From positions 1,612,001-1,676,000 of the forward strand of contig CANMXN010000001.1 of NCBI GenBank assembly GCA_947501885.1: a stretch of DNA of 64,000 bases, read 5' to 3'. Below are positions 33,497 to 63,238 of this stretch, in pieces. This DNA comes from an uncultured Sphingorhabdus sp. GTDB lineage: Bacteria; Pseudomonadota; Alphaproteobacteria; Sphingomonadales; Sphingomonadaceae. The position numbers were made by a program, and so were the translations under genes. The notes under the pieces were generated by a model. It was given only the letters and a program-made list of their open reading frames with translations. It was not told the origin of the DNA and ran no database searches. The first letter of the stretch is position 1; every line of letters begins with the position of its first letter.

Positions 33497-34309
33497 CTAG
33501 GCTAGAATTTTATTGCGGGTCTCTTCTATATTCGCATTGGGTTTTATGAGTTCAGGCAGATTAAGCGCTCCCACCAATTCACGCAACTCTTGCCTTGCAA
33601 CAATATGGGCAGTAGCCAAATTGCCCAAATGGCCTTTATCAATCAATGTTAATCCTGATGGAAAAAGCTCTCGGTATATCACCCGCTCGTTTAAACCCGA
33701 TATAGGCCGAAACCCAGCACGCTTAGAGAGTTCTGCAACTGCATGCAGCATTCGATGTTGGTTACGTGCCTCGGTCTTATGCATGCGATTACGCAGCACT
33801 ATCCAATCAATGGTAATTCCATCAGCCTTGGCCCTTGCTTTGCGCGCATCCCAGATTAGTTCAGCATAAAAGCTTAATTTATTAACTTTATAAGTCTCAG
33901 GGTCCACTTGCCCAATCAAATCAAAGTCAACAAAGCTATCATTAATAGGCGTTACCAATGTATGCGAACGCGTGGCAACATAACGGGCAAATTTATCATC
34001 ACGGCCAGGGGTGTCGAACAATAAATAATCATGATCTTTTTCCAAGCGCTTTATCATCTGATCTAGCCGCGCAAGATTATCAGCCGTAAATGTTTCAACG
34101 GTGGCTGTCGGCAAAGTAACAGAACGACGCACCATAGTTTCTTGGCGGTTTTCAAGATAACGCGCCATTGTTCTTTGCCGTTTATCAAGATCAATACAAG
34201 CAACTCTGGCACCGCGATATGCCAAGGCAATAGCGACATGTATAGCCGTAGTCGACTTACCTGTGCCGCCTTTTTCATTGGCAAAAACAATACGATGCGC
34301 TCTGCTCAT
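33497..34309 (-). CDS. mipZ: MipZ-type ParA/MinD ATPase, division-site placement
   Basis: It is a dimerising P-loop ATPase that, in Caulobacter, forms a gradient from ParB-parS complexes at the poles and blocks FtsZ assembly away from midcell. The deviant Walker A is KGGTGKST at residues 13-20 (with the signature Lys), Walker A' is ACIDLDKRQRTMARY, and the Walker B region is YLLFDTPGRDD. The C-terminal part with IDWIVLRNRMHKTEARN is distinctive for MipZ rather than ParA. The size (270) fits. Two parS-like sites lie 20 kb away at 54.4-54.9 kb. It is divergent from panC. Confidence 0.92.
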   Translation of the reverse strand: MSRAHRIVFANEKGGTGKSTTAIHVAIALAYRGARVACIDLDKRQRTMARYLENRQETMVRRSVTLPTATVETFTADNLARLDQMIKRLEKDHDYLLFDTPGRDDKFARYVATRSHTLVTPINDSFVDFDLIGQVDPETYKVNKLSFYAELIWDARKARAKADGITIDWIVLRNRMHKTEARNQHRMLHAVAELSKRAGFRPISGLNERVIYRELFPSGLTLIDKGHLGNLATAHIVARQELRELVGALNLPELIKPNANIEETRNKILA

Positions 34310-53878: not shown

Positions 53879-54865
53879 ATGGCAGATAAATTCAGAGCAA
53901 CATCATCTCAAAAAAGAATGGCTATTGTAAGGGTAACCATTGCCATTATACTGGGCCTTACTTTTTCTTGGGCTTTATATGCTTTACTGAACATATTTAA
54001 CACCAGTCCAACTGGCGTTATTATGTTTTCATTTCTTGTTATAGCACCCTTTTGTTTTTCAGCCTTAATAGCTTACATTGCAGATCCATTTTTTATCAAA
54101 GAGATACATTTTTATACGAAGACCGCTCTTATATTCATGGTAGCCATTACCATAGCATCTGCCTTCATATTACAAGAAGGAATATTATGTATATTAATGT
54201 TACTCCCACTTTGGGTACCGCTGAGCTTAGCAGGATCGGCTTTCACTTATAAAGTTAGAAAAAATTATAGGAAAAGCCGTACATATTGTATGGCACTGCT
54301 GATAATCCCATTCATCGCTGTCCCCATTGAAAACCAGATTAATATTACACCGCAAAATCACACTGTTTCACGTGAAATCATCGTCAATGCTTCTGCCAAT
54401 AAAATTTGGCCACTGTTGCGCGGTATTGAAAATGTCAGTGCCAATGAGGGGCAATGGAATATATCCCAAAATATTATGCAAGTGCCGCGTCCTATTGGTG
54501 CCAAACTTATTGGCAGCGACATAGGGGCGCAACGCTTGGCCAAATGGGAACGCAATATAGACTTTCAAGAAGAAATCACACAATGGGAAAAGCACAAACA
54601 TATTGGCTGGCGCTTCATATTTAAAGACTTACACGAATGGGATTTTCTGGACGAGCATTTAATGCCCAATAGCCAATATTTCCAAGTAAAGTCAGGTGGA
54701 TATGCCCTCATAGCTCTACCTGATGGTCGCAGCAGATTGTCATTGAATACACAGTATTGGATAAAAGTACCATTTGGCAGCTATGCTGCTATTTGGGGTG
54801 AATTTCTGCTTGGTGATATTCATGATAACCTCTTGCATCTTATCAAAGAGCGTGCGGAACAATAA
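53879..54865 (+). CDS. Membrane protein with C-terminal SRPBCC/polyketide-cyclase-like domain
   Basis: The first ~145 residues hold four or five membrane helices. The remainder (about 155-328) is a START/SRPBCC-like ligand-binding domain: VSREIIVNASANKIWPLLRG is the typical first strand and helix, followed by RLAKWERNIDFQEEITQWE and IGWRFIF. The domain probably faces one side of the inner membrane and binds a lipid or other hydrophobic molecule. I know the architecture only loosely from alphaproteobacteria. A parS-like sequence lies inside this coding region at 54364-54379. Confidence 0.72.
   Translation: MADKFRATSSQKRMAIVRVTIAIILGLTFSWALYALLNIFNTSPTGVIMFSFLVIAPFCFSALIAYIADPFFIKEIHFYTKTALIFMVAITIASAFILQEGILCILMLLPLWVPLSLAGSAFTYKVRKNYRKSRTYCMALLIIPFIAVPIENQINITPQNHTVSREIIVNASANKIWPLLRGIENVSANEGQWNISQNIMQVPRPIGAKLIGSDIGAQRLAKWERNIDFQEEITQWEKHKHIGWRFIFKDLHEWDFLDEHLMPNSQYFQVKSGGYALIALPDGRSRLSLNTQYWIKVPFGSYAAIWGEFLLGDIHDNLLHLIKERAEQ
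54364..54379 (+). other. parS-like ParB-binding site (14 of 16), inside a coding region
   Basis: TGTTTCACGTGAAATC matches the parS consensus TGTTTCACGTGAAACA at the first 14 positions, with the palindromic core GTTTCACGTGAAA intact. It falls within the SRPBCC membrane-protein gene, 563 bp before a second, exact site. Paired clustered sites support a true centromere function. Confidence 0.75.
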
Positions 54866-54926
54866 ATCCCCTTATCCATTAATCTGACAATATATAAATT
54901 TGTCTCCATTATATCTGGACAGACTA

Positions 54927-54942
54927 TGTTCCACGTGAAACA
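54927..54942 (+). other. parS centromere site (exact consensus), intergenic
   Basis: TGTTCCACGTGAAACA matches the ParB-binding consensus TGTTNCACGTGAAACA at all 16 positions. It lies in the 86-base gap between the SRPBCC protein gene and the spermidine-synthase-fold gene, ending 9 bases before the latter's ATG. Chromosomal parS sites sit near the replication origin. Confidence 0.88.
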
Positions 54943-54951
54943 GATATATTC

Positions 54952-55626
54952 ATGATCCCAAGACAATTGCTTGCTAGCGCCAAAATACCCAATACACCCG
55001 ATGATGAATTGCGGCTCTTTTCCCATGGGGATGATTTTATCATAATGCTAGGCAGTAATGAGCTGATGAATAGCCGCGTCTATGGATCAGAAGAAGCGCT
55101 GGCCCATTTATCTTGCGCTGCCATAGCCAAACATAAAGCACCGCATATATTAATCGGCGGTTATGGCATGGGCTTTACGCTACGCGCAGCATTAGCAAAG
55201 GTGCCCCAAGACGCCAAAATCACGATTGTAGAACTGGTTCCTGCTATCATAGATTGGGCAAAAGGGCCGATGCAATCACTTGGCGGTACATGCCTAAATG
55301 ATCCTAGGGTTAATCTTGAAATTGATGATGTGGCCGATACTATAAAGGCCGCAAAAAATCGCTATCACGCCATCTTGCTAGATGTTGATAATGGCCCCGA
55401 TGGCCTGACTAAGGCTGACAATGATAGCCTCTATAGCGATATGGGTTTGACAGCGGCCAAGACAGCACTGATAAAGGGTGGAGTATTGGCCATATGGTCA
55501 GCCCATAGCGACAAGCAATTTAGCAAGCGATTGCGTAATCAGGGATTTAAAACCCAAGAACATATTGTACGCGCCCGGTCCAATGGCAAAGGTGCGCGCC
55601 ATTATATTTGGATCGCGCAGAAATAA
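54952..55626 (+). CDS. Spermidine-synthase-fold protein
   Basis: A Rossmann methyltransferase-like fold of the spermidine synthase family: HILIGGYGMGFTLRAAL replaces the usual GGGDGG loop, followed by ITIVELVPAIIDWAK (acidic residue binding the ribose) and YHAILLDVDNGPDGL with the catalytic-type Asp. At 224 residues it lacks the N-terminal beta-domain of true spermidine synthases (about 280). It may be a relative with another substrate. A parS site lies immediately upstream, so ParB binding could affect its transcription. It appears to stand alone. Confidence 0.78.
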   Translation: MIPRQLLASAKIPNTPDDELRLFSHGDDFIIMLGSNELMNSRVYGSEEALAHLSCAAIAKHKAPHILIGGYGMGFTLRAALAKVPQDAKITIVELVPAIIDWAKGPMQSLGGTCLNDPRVNLEIDDVADTIKAAKNRYHAILLDVDNGPDGLTKADNDSLYSDMGLTAAKTALIKGGVLAIWSAHSDKQFSKRLRNQGFKTQEHIVRARSNGKGARHYIWIAQK

Positions 55627-59027: not shown

Positions 59028-60497
59028 GTGAGCAAATATATATTAGTGATCGATGAAGGCACCACTTCTACGCGGGCAATGCTCTTTACACCCGATGGAA
59101 AATGCCATGACAGTGCTCAGTTAGAGCTAACCCAATATTATCCAGAACCTGGTTATGTTGAACATGATGCCGAGGAAATCTGGCAAAATAGCCTGTCTTG
59201 CATACAGGATGTGATCGCCAAAGCAGGCGGCGGTGACAAAATTATTAGCATTGGCATTACCAACCAACGCGAAACCATCATTTTTTGGGATAAGCGCACC
59301 GGTAAGCCTCTGACCAAAGCAATTGTATGGCAAGACCGTCGCACCAGTGACATATGTAATGCGCTTAAAGATGCGGGCCATGAAGATATGATTCATGAAC
59401 GTACAGGCCTTCGGCTTGACCCTTATTTCTCTGCGAGCAAAATCGGTTGGGCGCTCAAAAATTGGCCTGAGCTGAAAGAAGCAGGCGATCATTTGGCCGT
59501 CGGCACTGTCGAGAGCTATTTAATATTTCGCCTAACGGGTGGCTTACATATCAGTGATGCCACTAACGCATCACGCACGGCCCTTATGAATATCGATAGC
59601 GGCGAGTGGGATGATGAGTTATGTGATCTTTTCAACGTACCCAAATCAATATTGCCCCAAATTACTGATTGTGTAGGCGATTTAGGGGTTTGTAATACCG
59701 ATGTTGTCGGCCATGCTATTAAGATTTGCGGATCAGCAGGCGATCAACAAGCCGCCACCATTGGTCAGGCTTGCTTGAAAAATGGGCAAAGCAAAGCAAC
59801 CTTCGGCACTGGTGCGTTCATTCTCACCAATACAGGGACACAATCGCGCCGTTCCAAAAACCGTTTATTGTCCACCATCGTCTGGCAAATCGATGGCCAA
59901 CGTCATTATGCTCTTGAAGGGTCTATCTTTGTCGCAGGTAGCCTCATTCAATGGTTACGCGATGATGTAAAGCTTATCACAGCAGCAAAAGATTCAGAAG
60001 AAATAGCACGGCAATTAGATAATAATGGCGGGGTTTATATAGTACCTGCCTTATCAGGCTTAGGTGCGCCGCATTGGAAAGCAGATGCCAAAGCCATGAT
60101 ATGCGGGTTAAGCTTTGCAAGCAGCAAAGACCATATCATCCGTGCAGCATTAGAAGCGATGGCCTATCAAAGTTATGATTTAAAAGCAGCCTTTACCGAT
60201 GATGGCGGTGAATGGAGCGAATTGCGTGTTGACGGCGGTATGGTCAATAATAGCTGGATGGTACAATATCTTGCTGACATATTGAATGTGAAAATTAATA
60301 GACCTGACTTTGTCGAAACAACAGCATTAGGGGCTGCTATGCTTGCTGCTGTTGGTTCTGGACTTTATAAAGACCTCAAAGAAGCGGCGGTAATGATTGG
60401 TGATACCACCAGCTTTACTTGCACGATGGAAGACAAAGAGCGCAAGATAATATTAGAAGGTTGGCAAAAAGCGGTTGATTTCGTGGTAGCGGATTAA
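59028..60497 (+). CDS. glpK: Glycerol kinase
   Basis: It phosphorylates glycerol to glycerol 3-phosphate with ATP. FGGY family landmarks are the N-terminal IDEGTTSTRAMLF, the substrate loop GITNQRETIIFWDKRTG, IVWQDRRTSDICNAL, FGTGAFILTNTG and LRVDGGMVNNSWMVQYLADIL. The length (489) is slightly short of the usual 500. It starts with GTG (59028) behind AAGAGGA. No glpF or glpD gene is adjacent. Its stop overlaps the stop of the convergent usher-like gene (TTAA at 60494-60497). Confidence 0.95.
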   Translation: MSKYILVIDEGTTSTRAMLFTPDGKCHDSAQLELTQYYPEPGYVEHDAEEIWQNSLSCIQDVIAKAGGGDKIISIGITNQRETIIFWDKRTGKPLTKAIVWQDRRTSDICNALKDAGHEDMIHERTGLRLDPYFSASKIGWALKNWPELKEAGDHLAVGTVESYLIFRLTGGLHISDATNASRTALMNIDSGEWDDELCDLFNVPKSILPQITDCVGDLGVCNTDVVGHAIKICGSAGDQQAATIGQACLKNGQSKATFGTGAFILTNTGTQSRRSKNRLLSTIVWQIDGQRHYALEGSIFVAGSLIQWLRDDVKLITAAKDSEEIARQLDNNGGVYIVPALSGLGAPHWKADAKAMICGLSFASSKDHIIRAALEAMAYQSYDLKAAFTDDGGEWSELRVDGGMVNNSWMVQYLADILNVKINRPDFVETTALGAAMLAAVGSGLYKDLKEAAVMIGDTTSFTCTMEDKERKIILEGWQKAVDFVVAD

Positions 60498-63238
60498 AAT
60501 CCGCCGCCCGTCACTTCGCTATCTTCTTCCTCCTCCTCCACATCAGCTTGGGCGATCTTCGCTTTTGTTTTGGCGGCCAATGTACCAAAATCAAAAGTTG
60601 GATTATCTACATTTAGTACAGCAGTTTCTTGTAGGTCTGATTGTGCCCCAATAATATCAGCAACCAAGGGGTTAATACGAATTTTATATTCGCCATAAGC
60701 CACACTTTCAAAAAGGAAATAACCGTCAAACTCACTCCGGGTTTTCTTAATCACATTGCCATTTTTATCCAGCAATTCCAAATCAACACCCGTGAATAAT
60801 CCACCGCCTTCTTTCACCAAAGTACCCGAGATTTCACCCGCCGATACCAATGGCAATAATATCTCAAAGGCAACGCCAGGCCGCGGCGTAACAACAACAC
60901 CACTGGTCGCAGGCTGCACAAAAGGGTCTGGTAAGGTCGAATCATCGATACCAATCAATATTGGCTGGAAAGGCTGTAAACCATCAATCACGGTTTGCCC
61001 TGCTTCATTGGTCGGTTCTGATTTACCAGAATTACCAGCGGTTAATTCCACATCTTGTTCCACACGTTCATTGGGCTGATGAATCCCATCGCCATTATCA
61101 TCGTGAAATACAGTAGCAAAAGCCTGTCCAGTGGTCGCCAATTTATTAGATGCTATTCTAATCCCGCGCCCACTAGGTTTTGGCCCTAAACTAAAGGCTA
61201 GATTCAAACCAGCGGCAACAGACCCATCACTTGCTGCTTCTATTTGTCCTGTCAAAGCAACATTTTTGAAACGCCGCGTATAGCCAAGGGCGAAACGGCC
61301 ACGCCGCGACAAGGCTTGATAGCCCAATTCCGCACGGAAGGCTGATCTATCACTTGCCCGCCAATCTGCTGTTATCTGTGATGCTCTAAAGCCAGCACCA
61401 CCCAAACCCCCAGAAAGGGCAAAGCTTGCTTCACCGCGCAAACGAATGACGCCAAGACGGCCGCTCAAGCGAACCGTATTTTCAATTTCATCGGGTGGCC
61501 CCGTCCCGAACCGAAAGCTGTTTCTTTGCCATGATAGTTCGTTGGTTATACCCAAGCGATTGATATTAAAAGATATTCTAGTTAAAGCTTCTAAGCTTAT
61601 ATTGCCACCATTATCCTTTTCATAACTGCCTTCTAAATGTATTGGCAAAAATTTACGGCCCAAATTAATGTTCTGATCTAAAGTTGCGCGAACCAACTCT
61701 TTAACATTCACATTATAACGTTCCGATCGAAAACCTTCATCTAGCAATGCTGCTTCAACCTGAAATAATGTCTGTCCAAACTGGCCCAGAACCTGTGCAC
61801 GCACAGCATTATTAGACCCAAAATCATTAGAAGCTGATAACTCTACCAATGTCGGACCAATCGCACGGCGAATAGAAGCTTCTAGCTGTGTTTGTCGCTC
61901 ATTCAGCGATTGCAAGGTGAAGACCGATGCCGCAATGGACGTTTTCGTATTAATACCGCGTTCCAGACCAAAACCACCGCGCAAACCATCCGATGTTGTC
62001 GAGTCAATATCACTAATATTAAAGAGATCACGTCCATTATCTTGCACAGTGGCCCAATAATAGGTTTCTCGAGGCGGAATAGAATCTAACCCCACAGGAA
62101 TAAGCTTTACCTCTTTCTTCACTTGGCCTTGCGGGCCATATAATATTACCTCAAAACGGTTTTGCCCATAAAGGAGAGCCACATCGATAAATTCATAGCG
62201 GCCATCACCGCGGCTAGCAGAAAAACCGATAAGCTGACCATTACGGTATAATTCTGCATCCCACCCATCGGGCAAATCTCCCCTAAAGGTTGTACGATCA
62301 AAATTTGCTGGGCGCTCAACAGGACGATTGGTAATGAAAGCACCACGCCCTGCAGTAGTTTGCGCGCCTAGCGCTGTTGACACCGTAGATATATCACCGA
62401 CAGCGACATGTGTGGCCTTTAAGGGGCCTAATAGCTCTGCCTTAGGGTCAGTGCGGTACAGGCGCACACGTGCACTATCTGGAGTTCCTTGATTATTGGA
62501 TGAGATACGCGCATCAAAAGACGCCTTAGCCAATTCACCGCTTGCAAAAATCTCATAGCGCGCATCAGCGCTTGAATTACCTTGGCCACTTTGTGCGCCG
62601 ACTGACGCCACAACGTCAACCGATGGCGTTCTCCAATAACGATAAGGATCTTTGGCTTGCGGCAGTTTCGTTATATCAAAATTACTACGCTGCCTGACAC
62701 GGCCCGCTCGCTCTTTGCGTTCTTCTGCTAGTTCAAAAGGTAGCTTTTCCTCTGACTTTAACACAAGCAAAGCGTTGGATAGATCAGTCACTAATTCCAC
62801 ATTGAGCCAAGAAGCAAGGCTATCAACATTGATACACCATCCCTCTGGCGTATCATAAATATCCGTTTTTGATAATTTGCTATTTTTGTTCACGATTTGT
62901 ACTATTGCTTGATCGCGATCAATAGTGATTGTACGTGTTTCACTAAACAACCAACCAGTTGCGCGGCGCGACTTTTTGCTCAAACGCACAGGTAAATCTA
63001 ATGCCAATATCACATCAGCAAAATCAACACATATACCATTGTGAGTTTGATACCCGCGCACGCCATCACCCAATCGATATTTGCCCGAACGAATATCAAA
63101 TAATAAAGCGTCATCATCATTGGCTACCCAATCCCCTTTTTCCTGCGCATAAGCAGAAGCGGCCGGAAGCGTTAAAGCTCCAGCCGCTAGTACCAATGCT
63201 TTAACAACAGTGGTAAAGGGTTTTAGATATTTAGACAT
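60494..63238 (-). CDS. Usher-like outer-membrane beta-barrel protein
   Basis: A signal peptide (residues 1-31, ending AYAQ) precedes an N-terminal domain (32-170) and a usher-type plug region: FRGDLPDGWDAELYRNGQLI, then DGRYEFIDVALLYGQNRFEV. A long beta-rich barrel part follows. After it lie an SdrD_B-like segment (TVFHDDNGDGIHQPNERVEQ) and a carboxypeptidase-regulatory-like segment (ISGTLVKEGGGLFTGVDLEL). It ends in an acidic tail EEEEEDSEVTGGGF. It is 914 residues. With the upstream PapD-like chaperone, it should export fimbria-like subunits. It lacks obvious standard PapC N-domain features, so it is an atypical usher. Confidence 0.8.
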   Translation of the reverse strand: MSKYLKPFTTVVKALVLAAGALTLPAASAYAQEKGDWVANDDDALLFDIRSGKYRLGDGVRGYQTHNGICVDFADVILALDLPVRLSKKSRRATGWLFSETRTITIDRDQAIVQIVNKNSKLSKTDIYDTPEGWCINVDSLASWLNVELVTDLSNALLVLKSEEKLPFELAEERKERAGRVRQRSNFDITKLPQAKDPYRYWRTPSVDVVASVGAQSGQGNSSADARYEIFASGELAKASFDARISSNNQGTPDSARVRLYRTDPKAELLGPLKATHVAVGDISTVSTALGAQTTAGRGAFITNRPVERPANFDRTTFRGDLPDGWDAELYRNGQLIGFSASRGDGRYEFIDVALLYGQNRFEVILYGPQGQVKKEVKLIPVGLDSIPPRETYYWATVQDNGRDLFNISDIDSTTSDGLRGGFGLERGINTKTSIAASVFTLQSLNERQTQLEASIRRAIGPTLVELSASNDFGSNNAVRAQVLGQFGQTLFQVEAALLDEGFRSERYNVNVKELVRATLDQNINLGRKFLPIHLEGSYEKDNGGNISLEALTRISFNINRLGITNELSWQRNSFRFGTGPPDEIENTVRLSGRLGVIRLRGEASFALSGGLGGAGFRASQITADWRASDRSAFRAELGYQALSRRGRFALGYTRRFKNVALTGQIEAASDGSVAAGLNLAFSLGPKPSGRGIRIASNKLATTGQAFATVFHDDNGDGIHQPNERVEQDVELTAGNSGKSEPTNEAGQTVIDGLQPFQPILIGIDDSTLPDPFVQPATSGVVVTPRPGVAFEILLPLVSAGEISGTLVKEGGGLFTGVDLELLDKNGNVIKKTRSEFDGYFLFESVAYGEYKIRINPLVADIIGAQSDLQETAVLNVDNPTFDFGTLAAKTKAKIAQADVEEEEEDSEVTGGGF

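Follow-up and report, generated by a model that had tools for sequence, protein, structure and literature searches.

A predicted outlying parS site, with a possible older weak companion, on one side of the core parS pair of an uncultured Sphingorhabdus sp.

ParB proteins load at parS sites and slide along the DNA with CTP. This sliding mechanism has been described for ParB-CTP (PMC8367383, PMC7053999), and the closest described arrangement of sites is that of Caulobacter crescentus, in which the seven parS sites (sites 1-7) share one 16-bp palindrome, several lie on one side of the origin, and strong and weak sites are mixed (PMC5815017). According to the sections of that study used here, the five strongest Caulobacter sites fall within 5 kb, in a cluster about 8 kb from ori, whereas the strong sites of Bacillus subtilis are spread near the origin at 5-39 kb from one another. 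The latter organism belongs to another phylum and its ParB has a different C-terminal domain, so that the comparison with B. subtilis holds for the spacing alone (PMC5815017).

The window analysed here is a stretch of 64,000 nucleotides (C1:1612001-1676000) of an uncultured Sphingorhabdus sp. (Sphingomonadales). The genome resembles the Caulobacter system in its 16-bp palindrome TGTTNCACGTGNAACA, in placing several of its sites to one side of the predicted origin and in the mixture of strong and weak matches. Unlike in Caulobacter, the core consists of a pair of sites 2.0 kb apart, located 6.7-8.7 kb from the predicted origin, with an outlier 12.5 kb further away. A literature search for Sphingorhabdus and parS found no paper, and broader searches found none on the genus; the analysis places the window at the replication origin and gives likely ParB sites for this genus.

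The outlier, TGTTCCACGTGAAACA at 54927..54942 (no strand assigned), matches TGTTNCACGTGNAACA with zero mismatches, as the initial annotation had reported. It lies between genes, its end 9 bases 5' of the ATG of the next frame, a gene on the + strand (54952..55626) with a spermine/spermidine synthase domain (PF01564, E 7.7e-11) directly downstream of the site. When the whole genome was scanned (2,648,749 bases in 21 contigs), TGTTNCACGTGNAACA was found exactly at three places, C1:1666927 (window position 54927), 1679434 and 1681423, all within 14.5 kb, and not at many equally good scattered places, which had been named as evidence against the annotated sites. Given the base composition found in a 400-kb sample of the contig, 0.00027 exact matches are expected per window and 0.011 per genome; therefore, with three exact places observed, the match at 54927 is far above chance. 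When up to two mismatches were allowed, 16 places were detected in this genome (the three exact ones included) against 3 for a reversed control pattern, which gave zero exact places across the 99 family genomes, this one included. Among the 15 CACGTG sequences of the window, the flanks GTTN...NAA were present on just the two annotated sites, as initially stated, and on this ground a scattered, non-specific CACGTG motif was ruled out. A par system of a plasmid or an integrated element was also ruled out, since the neighbours are those of the chromosomal parAB-rsmG-mnmG-mnmE cluster.

Immediately to the right of the window lies this segregation cluster, which runs parB, parA, rsmG, mnmG, mnmE, then rho, hemE and ppsR. 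Both par genes, and mipZ inside the window, were named by domain matches, while the identities of rsmG, mnmG, mnmE, rho, hemE and ppsR are presumed from their sequences. The parAB genes are 1.1 kb past the end of the window, and parB (C1:1677115-1678137) encodes ParB_N, HTH_ParB and ParB_C domains. When its product was aligned to Caulobacter ParB (6t1f), R and G were found at the places matching R173 and G201, a correspondence set by motif in the alignment, and the cognate ParB thus has, besides its HTH_ParB and ParB_C domains, the R/G specificity pair of parS-type recognition. In the part of the work on ParB specificity used here, parS-specific variants had an invariable R173 and G was most preferred at 201 (PMC7383237). 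Two further ParB-like matches in the genome were under the curated cut-off and far from parAB.

The remaining two exact sites adjoin parAB outside the window, to the right of 54927 by 12.5 and 14.5 kb. They form a core pair 1,989 bp apart (L019, C1:1679434-1681438), one of them in rsmG, where it occupies codons 16-19 and the surrounding bases (peptide V-S-R-E), and the other in the mnmE-mnmG gap. From 54927, the distances are 12.5 kb to the rsmG site, about 10 kb to the end of parB and about 21 kb to the predicted oriC. The initial annotation had taken the exact site and a weaker match nearby for the centromere cluster itself; the core lies 12.5-14.5 kb further right, beside parAB. Together, the annotated sites look like an outlying arm of a centromere that is ordinary in other respects; its main part, like the origin, is just past the right end of the window.

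Cumulative GC skew reached its minimum at the hemE-ppsR gap (2-kb bin C1:1686001-1688000). Bins to the left of the minimum were mostly negative (exceptions at 1614, 1652, 1658, 1660 and 1670 kb) and those to the right mostly positive. In 20 distant sampled stretches, the left side was mostly negative back to 390 kb (with the exception of L033, +0.036, and with L034 near zero) and the right side was positive. The gap itself (C1:1687980-1688264) has an A+T content of 72%. An oriC near hemE is predicted for most Sphingomonadaceae in the available part of a Sphingopyxis genome paper (PMC4741004). Therefore, GC skew, gene order and literature together point to an oriC at the hemE-ppsR gap. Neither strict DnaA boxes (TTWTNCACA) nor the CtrA box TTAA-N7-TTAA were found within 1.5 kb around the gap, and their absence counts against this origin call, or at least gives it no help. 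The dnaA gene (L021, C1:1930266-1931594) was ruled out as an origin marker, as it lies 242 kb from the predicted origin, on the other side.

Measured to the centre of the gap, the core parS sites are at 6.7 and 8.7 kb, the site at 54927 at 21.2 kb, the weaker match at 54364 at 21.8 kb and mipZ at 42.6 kb. The window is thus origin-proximal, as had been proposed, and the rarity of the exact match, its neighbours and the predicted origin 21 kb away make 54927 almost certainly a ParB site, as predicted from sequence. The mipZ gene, which encodes the division-site ATPase (33497..34309, - strand; PF09140 MipZ, E 4.3e-107; ends taken manually from its open frame), had been described as lying 20 kb from the pair and hence close to its ParB partner. 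The distance of about 20 kb was recovered, but the core parS sites lie 33.9 kb from mipZ. As the MipZ protein is diffusible, little follows from proximity on the map, and the linkage of mipZ to parS carries no mechanistic weight.

The spacing of parS sites was compared in the genus (this genome plus 44 relatives, sites with up to one mismatch, several assemblies being fragmented). At least two sites within about 2.1 kb on one contig were present in 36 of the 44 relatives, with three sites in 13 of them (hand count); four more had two sites on different contigs, one had a single site, and in three (G113, G135 and G140) nothing parS-like was found. Sites in rsmG and in the mnmE-mnmG gap occurred in all five genomes where both were mapped (G000, G068, G136, G103 and G132). 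A third core site, in mnmG and 356-377 bp from the rsmG one, was present in all five three-site or close-pair relatives examined and absent from this genome, G068 and G136. None of the 44 relatives showed two exact sites separated by more than 5 kb on one contig; as several assemblies are fragmented, a distal site on another contig or past the end of a short one could be missed. The annotated pair had been considered to fit the usual clustered arrangement, whereas such a distal site is unusual in the genus.

At the family level (this genome and 98 others), at least one exact site was found in 85 of the 99 genomes, this one and G068 included. Among the 54 of these 85 genomes whose places were listed, none had an exact site 5-25 kb from another, and exact sites far from the core were seen at 51 kb in G013 and at more than 100 kb in G024, G030, G038 and G072. 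Therefore, the outlier in the window is unusual in its spacing and ordinary in its kind. In the last four of these genomes, exact sites were found over 100 kb away from the core pair or spread across the chromosome, and all seven exact sites of G038 read TGTTCCACGTGGAACA.

Taken together, we consider it highly probable that the chromosomal ParABS system has a genuine parS at 54927, an outlying position from which this site would load an extra ParB domain, with 54364 as an older and weak accessory site whose own case is evenly balanced. This reading starts from the sequence, rarity, position, neighbours and conservation of the sites, from which we infer ParB binding, spreading and an effect on segregation. 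ParB from parAB would bind 54927 and load there as a CTP-dependent sliding clamp, setting up an additional ParB-coated domain on one side of the core. This domain would recruit MipZ, as ParB does in Caulobacter (PMC5815017), and might also load SMC. In the same study, as far as its cited sections go, the spread of Caulobacter ParB from one parS in E. coli did not exceed about 2 kb, and across the native cluster ParB covered about 10 kb (PMC5815017). As 12.5 kb is beyond this range, 54927 would form a separate ParB domain instead of thickening that of the core, and bridging may join the two. The site at 54364 may be an older, weaker accessory ParB site within codons, either held or slowly decaying. 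What the two sites display is ordinary biology with a small evolutionary twist.

The weaker match, TGTTTCACGTGAAATC at 54364..54379 (no strand assigned), lies within the codons T-V-S-R-E-I of an open frame of 328 codons on the + strand (53879..54865), for which no match was found in Pfam or NCBIfam at 1e-3. The initial annotation had given it as a 14-of-16 match 563 bp from the exact one, and both values were confirmed (2 mismatches). The two sites it paired are not equivalent: 54927 is exact and intergenic whereas 54364 is coding, a difference in setting that the annotation had not mentioned, and, with a perfect 12-bp core, has both outer bases of one half-site altered. In our reading, one of the altered bases is the counterpart of guanine 1 of parS, which is contacted by R173 in Caulobacter ParB (PMC7383237, in the part used here). 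Two changes at positions 3-4, which are other positions than those altered at 54364, abolish binding in H. neptunium according to the cited part of PMC6650430, and, placed singly in E. coli, the weak Caulobacter sites 1 and 6 were enriched hardly or not at all (PMC5815017).

The genes around the weak site follow the order ornithine-cyclodeaminase-like, thioredoxin, the 328-aa frame, spermidine-synthase-like, DUF389, Lrp-like, GlpK, usher-like and parB, and the order is the same in the relative G068; these names come partly from domain matches and are in part presumed. In G068, the corresponding codons of the orthologue of the 328-aa frame (54-57% identity) spell TGTTTCACGTGAAATA, which has a single mismatch to the consensus, and the distance to the core pair is 12,975 bp there and 13,070 bp here. 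The two genomes share 15 identical nucleotides at this place. In length, this run ranks third among the identical stretches of the gene's codon alignment, in which fourfold sites agree at 24 of 68 positions. When conserved, highly degenerate tetrapeptides were compared between both genomes in 15 of the 17 reference genes of the region (arginase and rho left out), all four codons were kept in 53 of 1123, a count that takes in VSRE at both parS-bearing places. The product of the codon-identity rates for V-S-R-E came to 0.032, and to 0.010 once the preceding wobble T was included. The codon support for 54364 is thus modest, at a nominal 1-5%, computed after the pattern was known and on the single sister genome G068.

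With the exact site accepted as a real ParB site, the reading in which 54364 is a coding coincidence, V-S-R-E being spelt in parS-like codons, falls a little short of an even chance, and the readings considered here are not all mutually exclusive. About nine two-mismatch places (9.3 from base composition) are expected per genome, so 54364 by itself is no evidence, and this genome has 12 other places with one or two mismatches; the altered outer bases of the half-site also fit a coincidence, as does the peptide VSREI, which G068 shares with the distant homologue G089. However, G089 spells VSREI with other codons, so that the protein sequence is not enough to impose the motif, and G068 keeps all four codons, as few conserved tetrapeptides do, with an even better match. 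The proximity to an exact parS argues in the same direction: for the 13 places with one or two mismatches, the nominal chance of one or more falling within 600 bp of 54927 is 0.006 (0.005 with 12 places), the 600 bp limit having been set after the spacing of 563 bp was known. The claim that two close sites are unlikely by chance was thus upheld for 54927 and, nominally, for the closeness, but not for 54364 by count. As G068 keeps TGTTTCACGTGAAATA in the same codons while having no site corresponding to 54927, the weak match is raised from a coding coincidence to a balanced position, and real binding of ParB at 54364 is, on these sequence comparisons, an evenly poised prediction.

In the homologues of the 328-aa frame from G008, G089, G041, G123, G110 and G108, no parS-like site was found; weak matches came up in addition in G103 (two) and G135. 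Among five loci from the contig scan, the motif was present at L112, whose contig has the same length as that of G068, and L113-L116 were without any CACGTG. The 16-mer TGTTTCACGTGAAATC was found identical in mnmG of G132 (L125:3881), 353 bp from the rsmG site of that genome, where the third core site was found in the relatives examined. It also occurs in G068, on the other strand and 37 kb from the core, within a 906-aa frame that presumably encodes a MutS-like protein. In each case, TGTTTCACGTGAAATC could be a tolerated or decaying variant. Also in G132, an extra site with one mismatch, TGTTTCACGTGAAACT, was observed at L125:3001, near the rsmG-parA boundary and upstream of parA, and reads V-S-R-E in one frame.

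The exact site was absent from the two relatives in which this gene order was observed, G068 and G136, and is therefore either recent or was lost in both. In G136, neither site was present and the 328-aa gene was reduced to a C-terminal stub, indicating that it has been largely lost; the stub was located at L131:17625-17720, beside the spermidine-synthase-like gene. These absences suit an explanation in which 54927 is a neutral, recent parS gain in a tolerant zone, bound by ParB with nothing needed from it, a reading to which we give a real though clearly minor share of belief. In Caulobacter, a second parS cluster is tolerated in a region of about 500 kb surrounding the native one, according to the sections used of PMC5815017, and G013, G024, G030, G038 and G072 also have exact sites far from the core. 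Against neutrality, an unselected perfect match is unlikely at 0.011 expected per genome, and the site stands beside a possibly older weak one.

It is rather unlikely, though conceivable, that a distal ParB-loading arm at 13 kb from the core predates the split between this genome and G068 and is turning over, the codon site decaying while a perfect site 563 bp away replaces it. Under such turnover, a new site replacing the old one 563 bp off would mean that selection keeps the position and not the sequence. If real, a distal arm kept in place while its sequence moves would be a natural test case for the role of distant parS sites, and the reach of ParB, the loading of SMC and the MipZ gradient would be its testable functions.

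That the palindrome at 54927 is instead the operator of another regulator for the spermidine-synthase-like gene, in whose leader it lies with the ATG 9 bases on, is very improbable, as the match to parS is complete, outer bases included, and the orthologous loci of G068, G136, G132 and G103 had no match with fewer than four mismatches outside the 328-aa frame.

Other features were observed in the region. Between the distal parS and parB, a 914-aa frame (60494-63238; L019:6494-9238) encodes what we take to be an outer-membrane usher, and past it, at L019:9267-10875, chaperone-like and small secreted frames were found. Further to the left, the segment 12001-28000 had a G+C content of 0.36-0.39 compared to 0.43-0.46 elsewhere in the window, and is possibly a foreign segment.
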